The notes beneath the pieces were generated by a model, which saw only the letters and a list, made by a program, of their open reading frames with translations, was not told the origin of the DNA and searched no databases. From assembly GCA_946479475.1 (NCBI GenBank), contig CAMLGG010000343.1, positions 1 through 5,052 of the forward strand: DNA of 5,052 nt, written 5' to 3'. Below, piece by piece: positions 1 to 5,052 of the stretch. The DNA comes from an uncultured Ideonella sp. (GTDB lineage Bacteria > Pseudomonadota > Gammaproteobacteria > Burkholderiales > Burkholderiaceae). The position numbers and the translations under genes were made by a program. Positions within the stretch are counted from its first letter, which is position 1. The number at the start of each line of letters is the position of its first letter.

Positions 1-12
1 AGTGTCACTACA
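1..12. promoter_or_regulatory. Truncated HexR-type operator half-plus at the window edge
   Basis: The first twelve bases read AGTGTCACTACA. Against the HexR consensus as I recall it (TGTARTnnnAYTACA, 15 bp), these are positions 4 to 15, and all nine informative bases match; the first three bases lie outside the window. HexR is the KDPG-responsive repressor/activator of central sugar metabolism in proteobacteria. Two similar dyads lie upstream of glk, which supports the reading. The site probably belongs to a promoter of a gene starting left of the window, since no credible gene starts to its right. The consensus is from memory and the site is incomplete. Confidence 0.5.
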
Positions 13-219
13 TTCGGCGTTTTTGCGACAGCTCTTCTACAGACTTTCCCGGAGCGCATCGGCGCCGGACCGGGCATTCGCCACCCCAAGGCCGCACGGC
101 TGGGGTAAACGCCCGTTCGCAAGCCGGTCGCCCAGGAGTAAGTCGCGAGCAGAAGTGACGGGCGAACGCGCGCGCCGCCCAGCCTGACGGCGGGCGGGGT
201 CGGTGAAGAAGGGACCAGG

Positions 220-275
220 CGGGCCGGGAGCCGGCCCGGCGGCTCTAGTCGTCGACGGGCCGCCCCTGGACGACT
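220..275. repeat. Two adjacent G+C-rich inverted repeats
   Basis: Bases 220-227 pair perfectly with 231-238 around a GAG trinucleotide. Nine bases later AGTCGTC (247-253) pairs with GACGACT (269-275), with a small inner GGG/CCC stem at 257-259/263-265. Neither is followed by a T-run on either strand, so they are not canonical intrinsic terminators. They may be part of a folded RNA, a weak terminator array or a protein-binding dyad; the sequence does not decide. Confidence 0.45.
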
Positions 276-277
276 GA

Positions 278-316
278 TCCCCCCGGGGGACCGACGCCGA
301 AGGCGGCGTAGGGGTC
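278..316 (-). terminator. Possible transcription end region of glk
   Basis: Read on the minus strand, a hairpin starts five bases after the glk stop codon: an outer GACC/GGTC stem (bases 316-313 with 292-289) and an inner ACGCCG/CGGCGT stem (309-304 with 299-294) with a four-base loop, followed at once by a C-run/G-run dyad (290-278). The position is right for a terminator or 3'-end stabiliser of glk mRNA. No U-tract follows, so it is not a classical intrinsic terminator; in very G+C-rich genomes such stems can still mark 3' ends. Confidence 0.3.
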
Positions 317-320
317 GACT

Positions 321-1304
321 TCAGCCGACCTGCTGGTCGATCGCCGCGGCCGAGCCGGTCAGGGCGACCAGCGTGTCGGTGATGAGGGCCGTGGGAATGG
401 CCTCGAGGTAGCCGCGCAGGCGGCCCTTGGCTTCGAAGCGCTCGCGGAAGGACGAGGCGAAGAAGTGCTCTTCCATGCGCGGCACGATGCCACCGCCGAT
501 GTAGACGCCGCCGCGCGCGCCGTAGATCAGGGCGACGCTGCCAGCGAAGGTTCCCAGCAGGGAGCAGAAGCTGTCCAGGGTCCGGCGGCAGGCCTCGTCC
601 TGGCCGGACAAGCCCAGCGCCATGATCTTCTCGGCGGCCCAGGGCTGCTCCACGGCCCGGCCGAGCACCTTCGCCACGGCCCCGTGCAGCACCGGCAGGC
701 CGATCCCGGAAAGCAGCCGCTCCGCCGACACGTGGCTGAACTCCGCCCGCACGACGCCGAGCAACTCGGATTCGAAGTCGTCGCCAGGCGCCAGCGTGCT
801 GTGCCCACCCTCGCCGGGCAGGGCCACCCAGCCGTGCGCGGTCTGCACCACGCCCGCCACGCCCATGCCCGTGCCCGGGCCGATCACGGCCATCGCACCG
901 CGTGGCACCGGCATGTCGCCGTGGGCCCGCAGCTGCCCGCCGCGCAAATGAGGCAGCGCCAGTGCCAGCGCCTCGAAGTCGTTGAGCACCTGCAGGCCGT
1001 CCAGGCCGAGCGCCGATTGCAGCGCCTGGCGCGAAAAGCTCCAGTGGCTGTTGGTGAAGCTCACCCGGTCGCCGACCACCGCGGTGGCCACGGCGATGGC
1101 AGCGTGGCGGGGCGGCCGGTAGGCATCGCCCAGAGATGCCTTCAGGCCATCGAGGTAGGCGCGCGCCGCGTCCGCCGGCTCGGGATAGTCGGGCACGGCA
1201 AGCTTCTTCACATGGGCCGGGGTGGCGGCAGGGCCTTCGATCCAGCCGAAGCGGGCGTTGGTGCCGCCGATGTCGGCCACGAGGCGGGGATAGGTGGAGT
1301 TCAA
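321..1304 (-). CDS. glk: Glucokinase (ATP-dependent, group A bacterial type)
   Basis: Cytoplasmic enzyme that phosphorylates glucose with ATP to glucose-6-phosphate, feeding the Entner-Doudoroff or pentose phosphate route. The 327-residue protein matches the usual Glk length (about 320). Visible motifs: the N-terminal phosphate-binding DIGGTNARF (residues 11-19), sugar-binding FTNSHW (83-88), LNDFEA (107-112) with the presumed catalytic base D109, the second phosphate loop IGPGTGMGVA (141-150), EGGH (165-168) whose E and H bind the sugar, E195, and GGIVPR (271-276). The start chosen is TTG at 1304-1302, eight codons before DIGGTN, as in relatives; no ATG or GTG is available upstream, the only other option being CTG at 1313-1311 before an in-frame stop. 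The Shine-Dalgarno sequence is weak. The gene is divergent from the acyltransferase operon, and two HexR-like dyads lie upstream. Confidence 0.95.
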   Translation of the reverse strand: MNSTYPRLVADIGGTNARFGWIEGPAATPAHVKKLAVPDYPEPADAARAYLDGLKASLGDAYRPPRHAAIAVATAVVGDRVSFTNSHWSFSRQALQSALGLDGLQVLNDFEALALALPHLRGGQLRAHGDMPVPRGAMAVIGPGTGMGVAGVVQTAHGWVALPGEGGHSTLAPGDDFESELLGVVRAEFSHVSAERLLSGIGLPVLHGAVAKVLGRAVEQPWAAEKIMALGLSGQDEACRRTLDSFCSLLGTFAGSVALIYGARGGVYIGGGIVPRMEEHFFASSFRERFEAKGRLRGYLEAIPTALITDTLVALTGSAAAIDQQVG

Positions 1305-1345
1305 GGCGTCCAGGTCTCGAAAATTCCGGAAAGAATAAAGCTCAA

Positions 1346-1360
1346 GGTAGCAATACTACA
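1346..1360. promoter_or_regulatory. Candidate HexR operator upstream of glk
   Basis: GGTAGCAATACTACA matches the recalled 15-bp HexR dyad (TGTARTnnnAYTACA) at 10 of 12 informative positions; its core GTAG-N5-CTAC is a perfect dyad. Its centre lies about 49 bases upstream of the glk start codon, within the promoter region for glk. Glucokinase genes are known members of HexR regulons in proteobacteria, so release of repression by KDPG would be the expected logic. HexR itself is not in the window. Confidence 0.55.
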
Positions 1361-1410
1361 GCCTCGAATCTGAACAAGCATCCCAATTTCCCTCGTACGA
1401 ATCGCGCGTC

Positions 1411-1425
1411 CGTAGTCGAAGTACA
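1411..1425. promoter_or_regulatory. Second candidate HexR operator in the glk/acyltransferase divergent gap
   Basis: CGTAGTCGAAGTACA also fits the recalled HexR dyad at 10 of 12 informative positions. Its centre is 65 bp from the centre of the first dyad, about 114 bases upstream of glk and 59 bases upstream of the acyltransferase start. It could act with the first site on glk, or lie in the promoter of the plus-strand operon. It is less certain than the first because its inverted halves are imperfect. Confidence 0.4.
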
Positions 1426-1476
1426 AGGCGGTTTCAGCGGGCTGGCCTCCTGGCAAAGCAGCTAACATGCCCGGCC

Positions 1477-2100
1477 ATGACGCGAGCCGATCTCGTGGGC
1501 CGACTGCTGGCCTTCATCGCGCGCCTGATCACCGGTGCGCAGGGCCACTGGAAGGGCTGCCCGCCCGAGGCCTTGCAGCGGATCTACTTCGCCAACCACC
1601 AGAGCCACCTCGACTGGGTCCTCATCTGGGCCGCCCTGCCCGGCGAACTGCGTGCCCGCACGCGCCCCATCGCGGCCAAGGATTACTGGACCGCCTCGCG
1701 CTTCAAACACTGGCTGACGCGCGAGGTCTTCAACGCGGTCTACGTCAACCGCCAGAGGACCGACGAGAACGAGGATCCGCTCGAACCGCTGGTGCAGGCG
1801 CTCAGCGCCGGCGATTCGCTCGTCATCTTCCCCGAGGGCACGCGCAGCCAAGGCGGAGAGCCGCAGGCCTTCAAGAGCGGCCTGTACCACCTCGCCCGCC
1901 AGTTCCCGCAGGTCCAGCTGGTGCCGGCCTGGATAGACAACGTCCAGCGGGTGATGCCCAAGGGCGAGGTGGTGCCGGTGCCCATCCTGTGCACCGTCAC
2001 CTTCGGCACGCCCATCGCCCTCATGGCCGGGGAGGACAAGCGCAGCTTCCTGGACCGCGCCCGCGCGGCGGTCGTCGAACTCCGACCTCTCGTGCTTTGA
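1477..2100 (+). CDS. PlsC-family 1-acylglycerol-3-phosphate acyltransferase
   Basis: Membrane-associated acyltransferase that would transfer a fatty acyl group to a lysophospholipid, most probably lysophosphatidate to phosphatidate, in phospholipid synthesis or remodelling. The 207 residues carry the family blocks in order: NHQSHLDW (40-47) with the H-x4-D catalytic pair H41 and D46; a basic YVNR stretch (89-92); IFPEGTRS (117-124), the glycerol-phosphate binding block II/III with E120 and R123; and LVPAWIDN (148-155), block IV. A hydrophobic stretch near residues 6-20 may anchor it. The start is ATG at 1477; no strong Shine-Dalgarno precedes it. It is the first gene of a tight plus-strand operon, with the CdsA-like gene starting two bases after its stop. 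At 207 residues it is slightly shorter than E. coli PlsC. Substrate choice (lysophosphatidate or another acyl acceptor) cannot be read from sequence. Confidence 0.9.
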
Positions 2101-2102
2101 CG

Positions 2103-3077
2103 ATGCTGAGCTCGCTACGCAACCTCGACGCGGAACAGCAGGTCGCCCTGCTCTTCGTCATCGTCTTCGGCGCGCTGCTGGCCGTGACGGTCGGCGACCT
2201 GCTGGTGAACCTGCGCGACCGGCCGCCCGAGTGGGTGCAGCGGCACGACCGCTTCCAACGCGACCTGCGGGCCATGTGGATGGGCGCCGCGCTCTTCTGG
2301 TTGGCGTGGATATCCGGCCCGATCGGTGCCACGCTGCTGTTCGGCACCGTCTCGTTCCTGGCACTGCGCGAGTTCATCACGCTCAGCCCGACCCGCCGCG
2401 CCGACCACCGCAGCCTGCTGGTTGCCTTCTTCCTCGTGCTGCCCGCGCAGTACGTGCTGGTGGGCAACCGCAACTTCGACCTGTTCAGCGTCTTCATCCC
2501 GGTCTACGTCTTCTTCGCCATCCCGGTGCTGGGCGCGCTGGCCGGCGATCCCGAGCGCTTCCTGGAGCGCAACGCGAGCATCCAGTGGGGCATCATGGTG
2601 TGCGTCTACGGGCTGTCGCACGCGCCGGCCCTGCTGCTGCTGAACTTCCCCAATGCCCAGCCGGGGCGCGGCGCCTTCCTGGTGTTCTTCCTCGTCATCG
2701 TCGCGGTGGTCGCCCAGGTGGTGCAGGAGGCGGCGAGCCGCTGGCTCAGGCACCGGCCGCTGGCCCGGCAGATCAGCCGCTCGTTCTCGGCGCGCGCCTG
2801 GGCCTTGAGCGCCGCCGCAGCTGGCCTGGCCGGCGCCCTGCTGTTCTGGATCACGCCTTTCAAGTTCGCCCAGGCGCTCGCCATGGGCCTGCTGGCCGGC
2901 GGTGCAGGCACACTGGGCGAGTTCGTGATGAAGGCGCTGAAGAAGGACGTGGGCGTCGCCTACTGGGGCAACCAGGCCGCCGTGACCGGGGCCGTGGGCC
3001 TGCTCGACCGGGTGGCGCCCCTGGCCTTCGCGGCGCCGGTGTTCTTCCATTCGGTGCGCTGGTACTTCAAGCTATGA
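2103..3077 (+). CDS. CdsA-fold integral membrane protein with degenerate catalytic motifs (phosphatidate cytidylyltransferase-like)
   Basis: A 324-residue membrane protein with about eight hydrophobic segments (near 14-34, 59-88 as one or two, 103-121, 126-147, 162-181, 191-208, 233-250, 255-272). The membrane layout, the C-terminal pattern [14 protein letters not shown] (272-285), LDRV (301-304) and the FAAPVFFH ending, and its place right after a PlsC-type gene identify it with the CTP_transf_1/CdsA family, whose members make CDP-diacylglycerol from CTP and phosphatidate. The expected active-site residues are mostly gone, however: the family's GD...S reads GE...K (272-277), the KD reads AY (286-287), the PGHGG loop is replaced by a stretch without histidine (289-300), DRxD reads DRVA (302-305), and the SPxKTxEG loop reads [10 protein letters not shown] (224-233). 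Start ATG 2103 has no Shine-Dalgarno and lies two bases after the upstream stop, suggesting translational coupling. It may be a non-catalytic paralogue or a changed enzyme; an automatic pipeline would probably call it phosphatidate cytidylyltransferase. Confidence 0.82.
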
Positions 3078-3631
3078 GTCGTGTGTTGGGCATAGACCCC
3101 GGCCTGCAATGCACCGGCTTCGGCGTCGTCGAGCGCGAAGGCACCCGGCTGCACTACGTGGCCAGCGGCACCATCCGCACCACGGGCGGGGGCATCGCCC
3201 AGGGCGACCTGCCGGGCCGGCTGAAGATCATCTTCGAAGGCGTGCGAGAGGTGGCCGAGCGCTACCGGCCGACGGACGCCTCGGTCGAGATCGTCTTCGT
3301 CAACGTGAATCCGCAGAGCACGCTGCTGCTGGGCCAGGCCCGCGGCGCGGCGCTCACCGCACTGGTGACCGCCGGCCTGCCGGTGGCCGAGTACACCGCA
3401 CTGCAGATGAAGAAGTCGGTCGTCGGCCACGGCCACGCCGCCAAGTCGCAGATCCAGGAGATGGTGATGCGCCTGCTCTGCCTGCCCGGGCTGCCGGGCA
3501 AGGACGCGGCCGATGCCCTCGGCCTGGCCATCACCCACGCCCACGCGGGCGGCTCGTTCGCCGCCATGGCCCAGGTCACCTCGCTGAACCGGCGCACGCA
3601 CGCGCAGTTCCGCAACGGCCGCACCTACTGA
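3074..3631 (+). CDS. ruvC: Crossover junction endodeoxyribonuclease RuvC
   Basis: Dimeric Mg-dependent nuclease that resolves Holliday junctions by symmetric cuts, working with the RuvAB branch-migration motor in recombination and repair. The 185-residue protein (E. coli RuvC has 173) begins with [15 protein letters not shown] and keeps the full catalytic set at positions matching E. coli with a constant offset: D8, E72, D144 and D147 (E. coli D7, E66, D138, D141), plus F75, K113 and K124 (E. coli F69, K107, K118). The [15 protein letters not shown] (79-93) and [15 protein letters not shown] (143-157) blocks are typical, and a basic tail follows. ATG 3074 overlaps the stop of the CdsA-like gene as ATGA, with no clear Shine-Dalgarno, so translation is probably coupled. 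No ruvA or ruvB is in the window, and its partners here are lipid genes. Confidence 0.97.
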
Positions 3632-3636
3632 ACATC

Positions 3637-3642
3637 GAAAGG
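3637..3642 (+). promoter_or_regulatory. Ribosome binding site deciding the GTG start of the hydrolase
   Basis: GAAAGG lies nine bases before GTG 3652 in the 20-base gap after ruvC. It is the clearest Shine-Dalgarno in this operon and supports the GTG start, since no ATG is available in frame near the conserved N-terminus. Confidence 0.6.
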
Positions 3643-3651
3643 TTCCGGACC

Positions 3652-4356
3652 GTGTCCCATTCGCCCGTCCGCTCGGAGTGGATCGATGTCGAAGGCCCCG
3701 ATGGCCGATTCGGCGCCTACCTCGCCCTCCCACCTGCCGCGCGCGGCCCGGGCCTTCTGCTGCTGCAGGAGATCTTCGGGGTCAACGAGCACATCCGCGC
3801 CGTCGCGGAGCAATACGCGCTCGACGGCTTCGTGGTGCTGGCGCCGGACCTGTTCTGGCGCCAGGGTCCCCGCATCGAGCTGGGCTACGAGGGGGCGGAC
3901 AGGCAGCGCGCCAACGCCCTGAAGAGCTCGCTGGAGCCGGAGCAGACCTGGCGTGATCTCGCAGCCTCCCTCGCCGCGCTGCGGGCTCGGCCGGAGTGCA
4001 GCGGCCGCATCGGCGCCCTGGGCTACTGCCTGGGCGGCCGGCTGGCTTTCAACGCCGCCGCGTCGCTCGACGTGGATGCTGCGGTGGCCTACTACGGCGG
4101 CGGCATCCAGGACCAGCTTTCGCTGGCCGAGCAGATCCGCTGCCCGGTCCAGTTCCACTACGGCGTGCTGGACGCGCACATCCCGCCCGAGGCGGTGGAG
4201 GCGGTGCGCGAGGCGATGGCCGACAAGGACGCGGAGGTCCACGTCTATCCCGCGGCCGGCCATGGCTTCAACTGCTGGGCGCGCGCCAGCCACCACCCGG
4301 CCAGCGCGGCGTTGGCGCACGGCCGCAGCCTCGCCTTCCTCGCGGCGCTGTTCTGA
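3652..4356 (+). CDS. Dienelactone hydrolase family protein (carboxymethylenebutenolidase-like)
   Basis: A cytoplasmic alpha/beta-hydrolase of 234 residues, about the size of Pseudomonas ClcD (236). The family reaction opens dienelactone to maleylacetate in chlorocatechol breakdown, but many relatives outside such clusters hydrolyse other, mostly unknown, lactones or esters. Visible features: LLLLQEIFGVNEHIR (35-49) with the conserved glutamate E40 that holds the nucleophile, GYCLGGR (124-130) with the nucleophile C126, GVLDAHIP (171-178) with D174, and AAGHGFNC (201-208) with H204, giving the Cys-Asp-His triad of the family rather than a Ser triad. The GTG start at 3652 is chosen because of the ribosome binding site at 3637-3642 and fits the usual N-terminus (short strand, then GPDGRFGAYLALP). 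No aromatic-degradation genes are nearby, so the substrate is open. The gene ends 21 bases from the convergent glycosyltransferase. Confidence 0.92.
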   Translation: MSHSPVRSEWIDVEGPDGRFGAYLALPPAARGPGLLLLQEIFGVNEHIRAVAEQYALDGFVVLAPDLFWRQGPRIELGYEGADRQRANALKSSLEPEQTWRDLAASLAALRARPECSGRIGALGYCLGGRLAFNAAASLDVDAAVAYYGGGIQDQLSLAEQIRCPVQFHYGVLDAHIPPEAVEAVREAMADKDAEVHVYPAAGHGFNCWARASHHPASAALAHGRSLAFLAALF

Positions 4357-4380
4357 GCCGGACTCCGGAGGGACGGCTCA
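4354..4380. terminator. Bidirectional hairpin joining the stop codons of two convergent genes
   Basis: TGAGCCG (4354-4360) pairs perfectly with CGGCTCA (4374-4380), and TCC (4364-4366) can pair with GGA (4371-4373) inside, around GGAG. The TGA at the left end is the hydrolase stop codon; the TCA at the right end is the glycosyltransferase stop codon on the minus strand. The position suits a bidirectional transcription end, but neither side has a T-run, so terminator strength is uncertain. Confidence 0.4.
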
Positions 4381-5052
4381 GCGCACCTTGGTCGATTCGG
4401 CCCGGGCCGCCTGGGCCAGCGAGGACTGCGGGGCGAGCTCGGCCTCCCACAGCTCCAGGTGGATGCGCCTGCCCGGCGTCTGCTGGACATCGGCCACCGC
4501 GATGCGGCGCGGCGGGCGCTCCAGCGCCGCGAGCAGCGAAGCCTCGGGCCGGCCTTCCCCCACGATCAGGAAAGGCTGCGATTGGGCCGATGGCCGCAGC
4601 GGCACGCTCAGCTGGAAGTGGTCATGCGGCAGCTGGCCGGGAGCGCGCCAGGCCGTCCACTGCGGGGCCAGGTCGCGCCAGGCGTAGGTGCCGTTGGCCA
4701 GCACCGCCCGGTCCTCGCCGAGCACCAGCGGCGCCGCCAGGTCCGCCCCGTTCACGCCGGAACGCGCCCAATGGTCGCGGACCGCGGGCTTCAGCAGCTC
4801 GAAGGCCTGGTCCCAGCCCCGCATGCGGGCCCAGACGTCCATCTGCCGCGGCAACGGGCGGTGCGTCCAAGACGCGATGTCCCCTGCCAGCGTGACCGCC
4901 GCGATCAAGAGCGCCTGCGTCGCCAGGGCCGCATACCAGCCGCCGAGCGCACGGGCCGGCCGCTCGGGACGAAGCCACAGCACCAGGCCGACGATGGTGC
5001 CGATCAGGGCGGGCGCGGCCCAGTTCAGCTCGGCCTGGGCGTGGAAGGCCTG
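4378..5052 (-). CDS. GT39/ArnT-like membrane glycosyltransferase, C-terminal part (5' end outside window)
   Basis: The minus-strand frame is open from the right window edge to its stop at 4380-4378, giving the last 224 residues of a longer protein; the GTG at 4983 is internal, because the residues before it (AELNWAAPAL, fragment 7-16) are a conserved block of this family. GT39-type enzymes are inner-membrane proteins that move sugars from polyprenyl-phosphate donors to lipid A, protein or other acceptors on the periplasmic side. In the fragment, the NWAAPA motif is followed by two hydrophobic helices (about 14-28 and 37-58) and then a soluble domain of about 160 residues (WDQAFELLKP near 80-89, HDHFQLSVPL near 143-152), as expected for the periplasmic C-terminal domain. 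The catalytic N-terminal loops are not in the window, so donor and acceptor cannot be judged. It converges on the hydrolase gene. Confidence 0.78.
   Translation of the reverse strand, partial: QAFHAQAELNWAAPALIGTIVGLVLWLRPERPARALGGWYAALATQALLIAAVTLAGDIASWTHRPLPRQMDVWARMRGWDQAFELLKPAVRDHWARSGVNGADLAAPLVLGEDRAVLANGTYAWRDLAPQWTAWRAPGQLPHDHFQLSVPLRPSAQSQPFLIVGEGRPEASLLAALERPPRRIAVADVQQTPGRRIHLELWEAELAPQSSLAQAARAESTKVR

Follow-up and report, generated by a model that had tools for sequence, protein, structure and literature searches.

A YnbB-type CdsA paralogue that has lost its catalytic residues, a probable pseudoenzyme encoded between a short plsC and ruvC

A stretch of 5,052 nucleotides from an uncultured Ideonella sp. 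(contig CAMLGG010000343.1 of assembly GCA_946479475.1, positions 1 to 5,052; here called the window) carries a gene at positions 2103-3077 of the plus strand for a YnbB-type paralogue of CdsA, called X, whose catalytic residues are lost. We think it rather likely that X is a YnbB-type CDP-diacylglycerol (CDP-DAG) synthase turned pseudoenzyme and that it serves as a partner of the PlsC-type acyltransferase encoded just upstream. The active-site residues are lost throughout the clade and the gene is kept by selection beside one acyltransferase, therefore a different, non-catalytic job is probable. Judged by its residues, X very probably does not synthesize CDP-DAG.

A first-pass annotation of the DNA had described an intact frame coding for a CdsA-fold protein without almost all catalytic motifs, and both descriptions hold. 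The reading frame is open from 2103 to 3077 (324 amino acids). X matches PF01148 (CTP_transf_1) with 78.4 bits against a curated cut-off of 24, and its predicted structure shares the fold of housekeeping CdsA (T. maritima 4q2e/4q2g) over model residues 26-324. Profile match, alignment and predicted fold agree in placing X in the CTP_transf_1/CdsA fold. An NCBIfam search gave no family for X and a PDB search with the single X sequence gave no match; these two results speak for X being an unrelated membrane protein and the motif comparison an alignment artefact, which, beside the agreement just described, is hardly credible. The sole PADLOC match, to a TIR effector, was weak (E 0.0021) and was taken as chance.

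Catalytic residues of X and its relatives

Residues were compared with T. maritima (Tm) CdsA by alignment. A review describes a D219/D249 dyad in this enzyme, which holds a Mg-K centre, and places the catalytic site of CdsA in the C-terminal half (PMC7018664). The sequence set had 181 rows, made distinct on the last 150 residues; pieces shorter than 200 amino acids and the pieces of L105 were dropped before counting. Rows were labeled A (type A, a YnbB-type CdsA paralogue encoded beside plsC), B (YnbB-like), C (housekeeping CdsA, 29 rows including E. coli and Tm CdsA) or X (the clade of the window protein, 124 rows including the window, L184 and L191). The score was the number of residues kept out of 12 that are identical across all 29 C rows. 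The SPxKT lysine, the KD pair and the PGHGG histidine, which we take to be motifs of CDP-DAG synthases, are conserved in 29/29 C rows.

In the window protein E273 and K277 (2919-2933; coordinates here are on the plus strand) replace D219 and S223 of GDxxxS, A286-Y287 (2958-2963) replaces K232-D233, a pair of positions that is highly variable in X, and T295-G-A-V-G299 (2985-2999) replaces PGHGG, with A297 at the place of H241. In D302-R-V-A305 (3006-3017) the first Asp (D246) and the Arg of DRxD are kept, while the last, metal-binding Asp (D249) is Ala. K280/K281 align to K226/R227. The SPxKTxEG stretch reads SRSFSARA (residues 225-232), F228 standing for K167, inside a basic segment (residues 213-233, 2739-2801) that covers the old PxxSPxKTxEG stretch. 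The residue positions in the first-pass annotation (E273, K277, 280-281, 286-287, D302 and A305) match this alignment exactly, and its reading of a PGHGG motif without His, a replaced SPxKTxEG, and a retained KK pair and first DRxD Asp was borne out. It had overlooked one further loss, the Asp of WxADxxAY (D144), which is Asp in 57/57 rows of groups A, B and C and Q205 (2715-2717) in the window. It had also raised the possibility that the catalytic residues lie at other positions; no HGG, SPxK or DRxD was found elsewhere in the window protein.

Three of the 12 family residues are kept in the window (K226, D246 and R247), compared with 12/12 in the 9 B rows, 10-11 in the 19 type A rows and 0 to 6 in the 124 X rows. 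K167, K232 and H241 are each kept in 0/124 X rows, D144 in 1, D233 in 2, S223 in 3 and D219 in 6. An active CDP-DAG synthase would be expected to show the dyad along with the SPxKT lysine, the KD pair and the PGHGG histidine. Both Asp of the dyad occur together in 0/124 X rows, and the window has F228, A286-Y287 and A297 at the other places. Because the same losses are seen again in the other 123 curated X sequences and among 240 database proteins, neither chance nor an assembly error accounts for them. The database proteins, 120 from each of the two X branches described below, give the same picture as the curated rows; they were the top hits of two queries and therefore lean to near relatives.

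X was divided by D249, which is absent in 99/124 rows (X1, window included) and present in 25 (X2); since the column defines the split, it is no evidence for it. X1 has Ala (96), Gly (2) or Ser (1) at this place. At the place of D219 X2 has His in 25/25 curated rows, and this His and D249 are both invariant in the 120 X2 database proteins. The X rows without D249 have E, G, A, D, V, T, S or Q there. The first-pass annotation had noted an Asp to Glu change (E273); the Asp is indeed lost in the window, but Glu is not a conserved replacement. Other replacements are fixed, namely F228 (122/124), T295 (123/124) and A297 (122/124). Within X1, D219, K232 and D233 rank among the more variable columns, and the K167 to F and H241 to A changes are fixed. 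The mean net charge of the two old active-site segments is +2.3 in type A versus +8.2 in X1 and +6.3 in X2.

The loop at about residues 290-297 has low confidence in both structure models. Two Ideonella loci, L004 and L006 (X gene at 6001-7044), have an insertion of 29 residues in the loop at the place of PGHGG; an active-site loop would be unlikely to accommodate it. L184 (genome G268, 2938-3915), the X that has diverged furthest, keeps 0/12 residues, with K226, D246 and R247 changed, and retains the plsC-X-ruvC order. L191 is a part-way form that keeps D144, Y148, E170, G171 and D233 and lacks K167, D219, S223, H241 and D249.

YnbB-type ancestry and distribution

A quick tree search was run on 84 of the 181 rows, rooted on housekeeping CdsA (100; supports are SH-aLRT values). 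The B rows formed one group with E. coli YnbB (92), and A and X together another (98). X was one clade, with support of 98 without L191 and 87 with it. Inside X, 27 X1 rows without L184 and L191 grouped together (99), as did 12 X2 rows (92); L191 and L184 are on long branches. From this tree X may be the sister of type A or one of its early branches. X has a YnbB-type N-terminal half and groups with YnbB apart from CdsA, with E. coli YnbB as the marker. The earlier view of X as a degraded CdsA is therefore right as to fold and lost residues, but the clade lies within the YnbB-type paralogues and is not a copy of housekeeping CdsA. The proper comparison for X is the related type A.

The YnbB-type N-terminal half (residues 55-194, 2265-2684) is the more conserved half of X over long distances. 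Its mean identity in X1 is 0.35 to group B, while it is unlike housekeeping CdsA (E. coli b0175, T. maritima 4q2e/4q2g) by sequence (0.15); with those enzymes X shares the fold, having lost the catalytic site. L184 and L191 were left out of the N-half identities, of the comparisons of divergence between halves, and of the column-variability and net-charge figures. E. coli YnbB (b1409) combines the same type of N-terminal half with a CdsA C-terminal half, keeps 12/12 family residues, and is encoded in ynbABCD, whereas X lies in plsC-X-ruvC. E. coli YnbB is reported to synthesize GlcNAc-PP-DAG, on the route to MPIase, and the role of its N-terminal half is given as unknown (PMC6362211). CarS, the CDP-archaeol synthase (5guf), is described as having no dimerisation domain (PMC7018664).

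X could still be a YnbB-like enzyme that makes a little CDP-DAG or GlcNAc-PP-DAG, the MPIase precursor, by means of substitute residues. Its N-terminal half would fit such an activity, as would the report that E. coli YnbB raises MPIase and cannot replace CdsA (PMC6362211; PMC7018664). E. coli YnbB itself, however, has the full set of 12 residues, and the half that holds the catalytic site is the one emptied in X, with no copy of the motifs elsewhere. We consider residual activity of this kind improbable.

Type A proteins are named in Neisseria, Haemophilus and other Pasteurellaceae, and are found in some genomes of the family of X. They are the nearest relatives of X in the tree, share with it the order plsC then cds and mostly a similarly short PlsC, and are set apart by their 10-11 kept residues, D219 (Asp to Gly) being the general loss. 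In 120 type A database proteins all residues are kept except D219, plus one miss at K232. Gly stands at the first metal Asp in 119/120 of them, and also in L138; Asp to Gly at this place is reported for eukaryotic CDS (PMC7018664).

Genes similar to ynbA, ynbC or ynbD were nearby in 8/8 B loci and 12/17 A loci, and in 0/81 X1 and 0/25 X2 loci. Strong ynbC matches (at least 41% identity) were found in 6 of 87 genomes with X. G228, G231, G271 and G277 also carry type A, and in G206 and G293 ynbC shares a contig with another CTP_transf_1 match, at most about 130 bases away. Matches in six more X genomes were weak and partial (25-30%). A further CTP_transf_1 match lies directly beside a ynbC-like gene, with 41-42% identity, in G293 (C2:393740-396311), G206 (C89:14038-16672) and G219 (C1:4127397-4129966); these pairs are a possible third kind of ynb cluster. 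We infer that plsC and its cds neighbour moved as a pair out of a ynb-type cluster to a place before ruvC, and that the chemistry was lost. X and type A occur together in four genomes (L186/L167 in G271, L187/L197 in G228, L189/L198 in G277 and L192/L199 in G231), so X has not simply replaced type A.

X is present in 87/150 sampled genomes of the family of G001, where presence means a match of at least 54% identity; G231 matched in pieces, and some of the 87 copies were also read. Beside the 87 there are contig-end fragments in G201 and G241 and divergent forms in G268 and G294. Among 369 genomes across the class, 10 had matches at E 1e-50. Two had 60-71% identity (G001 and G061, both in the family sample), and the other eight, with 39-42%, are taken for type A by identity only. 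X is thus confined to one family in the 150- and 369-genome samples. The named X1 loci are mostly from genera placed in Sphaerotilaceae, and the X2 database names include Variovorax, Ramlibacter and Rhodoferax, which are Comamonadaceae. The nearest genome relative, L001 (80%), is filed as Vitreoscilla sp. MAG_67 (Neisseriaceae) but falls with Sphaerotilaceae; the record may be misnamed.

Genomes with X generally have another CTP_transf_1 gene. It scored 168-191 bits, versus 79-98 for X, in 11/12 relatives; in the twelfth (G011) the match fell into two pieces with 78 bits apiece, less than the 96 of X. In the family sample 148/150 genomes have a PF01148 match with an E-value no higher than 1e-30; G169 and G251, which lack one, are not X genomes. 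A strong match at a place other than X was found in 85/87 X genomes. G164 and G190 were judged by E-value alone (2.6e-45 and 8.0e-48, against 4.8e-27 to about 1e-21 for X in relatives). PF01148 was used because E. coli CdsA as query at E 1e-25 matched only 119/150 genomes and missed known canonical copies, e.g. in G001. Motifs of the canonical copies were read in 29 C rows, and most of the 87 genomes rest on score and place.

Linkage to plsC and ruvC

The window reads 5' to 3' as a glucokinase gene (minus strand), short plsC, X, ruvC, a dienelactone-hydrolase-family gene and the end of an unnamed gene. plsC (1477-2100, plus strand) codes for 207 amino acids with NHQSHLD and FPEGTRS motifs and ends 2 nucleotides before X; the start of ruvC (3074-3628, plus strand) overlaps the stop codon of X (ATGA). 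The unnamed gene (4378-5052, minus strand) gives a C-terminal protein part with no Pfam, NCBIfam or PHROGs match, and among the loci compared around X its only relative is at L002 (44%). An Rfam scan of the window (1-5052) gave no family at the gathering threshold.

The tight coupling to an intact-looking PlsC-type acyltransferase seen in the first-pass annotation extends to the whole clade. plsC is upstream on the same strand in 107/108 X loci, window included, with a median gap of 2 nucleotides and a gap of at most 60 in 95/107; HX4D is present in 104/107 of these proteins and FPEG[TS] in 105/107. Of 80 X1 loci, 79 have plsC and 78 have ruvC; L078, L008 and L054, where a miss occurred, are near contig ends. 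The coupling to ruvC is usual as well, but looser (at most 60 nucleotides in 84/106), and may be only shared transcription. In the 150 family genomes, 99 matched X or type A (E 1e-10) and 98 matched the window PlsC (E 1e-30). The 98 are the 99 less G177, whose match was only a fragment, so this PlsC is in 98/99 genomes with X or A and 0/51 without. PlsC and X distances correlate beyond ruvC with a partial r of 0.68 over 100 loci (controls 0.31 and 0.29) and 0.49 in 75 X1 loci alone (controls 0.30 and 0.33).

The window PlsC has 39 residues before NHxxxxD. By our own count the figure is 71 for E. coli PlsC and about 82 for the 5kym chain, presumably T. maritima PlsC. Most of the type A partners that were read have a similarly short stretch there, of 28 to about 57. 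A short N-terminus could mean weaker membrane anchoring and hence a need for a membrane partner. The PlsC match beside X is split at about residues 94-99 in G181, G228, G231, G243, G246, G277 and G295 (overlapping in G295 and G231), as if there were an insertion.

Selection and the possible function of X

Fold (by prediction) and frame are kept, the catalytic residues are lost and the gene is under purifying selection, the combination expected of a pseudoenzyme. The ratio of nonsynonymous to synonymous changes (dN/dS), pooled over 31 independent close pairs, is 0.161 for X, near the values for plsC (0.115, 30 pairs) and ruvC (0.126, 29 pairs), and agrees with the conserved clade that the first-pass annotation had suggested looking for. 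Close pairs were used because all 5121 pairs were judged to be saturated in synonymous sites (G+C at third codon positions, GC3, is 0.94 for X in the window). The medians over those pairs were 0.436 for X, 0.273 for plsC and 0.349 for ruvC. The high X median would fit a decaying pseudogene carried between plsC and ruvC, as would the loss of the catalytic residues in several steps, with L191 part-way. Against decay stand the close-pair ratio, the absence of stop codons in 108 aligned X stretches, and the presence of X in 87/150 family genomes, and we regard it as very improbable.

Over longer distances the two halves have swapped roles. The ratio of C-half to N-half differences (up to 300 sampled pairs per comparison) is 1.27 (1.00-1.63) for X1-X1, 1.40 (1.13-1.76) for X1-X2 and 1.41 (1.09-1.86) for X2-X2, whereas it is 0.73 (0.60-0.89) for A-A, 0.71 (0.58-0.88) for B-B and 0.81 (0.68-0.96) for A-B. 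Recent pairs do not show this inversion: there the C-half has a dN/dS of 0.128 and the N-half, including the variable residues 1-54, 0.187. Taken together, the catalytic half has been freed relative to A and B yet is still constrained.

Several points weigh against a pseudoenzyme that partners PlsC. The first is the higher dN/dS median over all pairs, which were judged saturated. Among recent pairs the C-half is no less constrained than the N-half, so it still does something, which speaks against a simple view that only the N-half matters. K226, D246 and R247 are kept in nearly all X. X2, with its invariant His and D249, may still hold a metal, making a His/Asp metal site possible there. Since type A is linked to PlsC in the same way, the link alone is no proof of a non-catalytic role, and the distance correlation, smaller within X1, is weak evidence. 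Each of 12 X genomes has 3-8 acyltransferase-family (PF01553) matches, so the X-linked PlsC is not the only one. The partner role, lipid binding and acyl carrier protein (ACP) docking of X are putative, as are the lipid sensing and scaffolding that the first-pass annotation had considered.

The main rival draws on some of these points. X would be a new enzyme with a site remodelled for a different reaction, the substrate being phosphatidate or a related lipid. The fixed T295-G-A297, K280, D282 and D302-R303 would be its working residues, plus the His/Asp in X2. The fixed replacements, the constraint on the C-half in recent pairs and the invariant X2 pair favor it. It has to contend with a D219 column that varies freely among the 99 X rows without D249, with L184, which has the gene order without K226, D246 and R247, and with the low-confidence loop that carries a 29-residue insertion in L004 and L006. 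We consider a new enzyme unlikely.

For X as a pseudoenzyme the following mechanism is proposed. By sequence, X keeps the predicted CdsA fold and an N-terminal half of the YnbB type, is under purifying selection, and is inherited together with one short PlsC. Its metal dyad is never complete, and the SPxKT Lys, the PGHGG His, the KD pair and nearly always the GDxxxS Ser are gone. In the proposed reading X would no longer make CDP-DAG and would be the membrane-embedded partner of that PlsC. We give the partnership itself about an even chance. The active-site cavity of TmCdsA opens to the cytoplasm and the bilayer. In X the old cavity, now basic, might hold lysophosphatidate or phosphatidate, or dock acyl-ACP, so that the short PlsC would work at the membrane; this step is the least certain and we are doubtful of it. 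Somewhat less doubtful, but still tentative, is the suggestion that the dead CDP-DAG synthase is an obligate membrane subunit of the short PlsC, forming a two-part acyltransferase. A short PlsC of this kind goes with X and with the intact type A alike, and so the YnbB N-half would be what serves the acyltransferase.

A search of the open-access literature by title or start of abstract found no paper on an inactive CdsA/YnbB clade. Database sources that name these proteins use 'phosphatidate cytidylyltransferase', a label that probably does not fit the clade and would lead metabolic models astray. By its strict pairing with one kind of PlsC, X is a candidate protein partner of a lysophospholipid acyltransferase. 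With its N-half kept and its catalytic half emptied, X separates the two functions naturally, which makes the question of the N-half directly testable. If the two-part acyltransferase exists, X would be the YnbB N-half freed from CDP-DAG chemistry.
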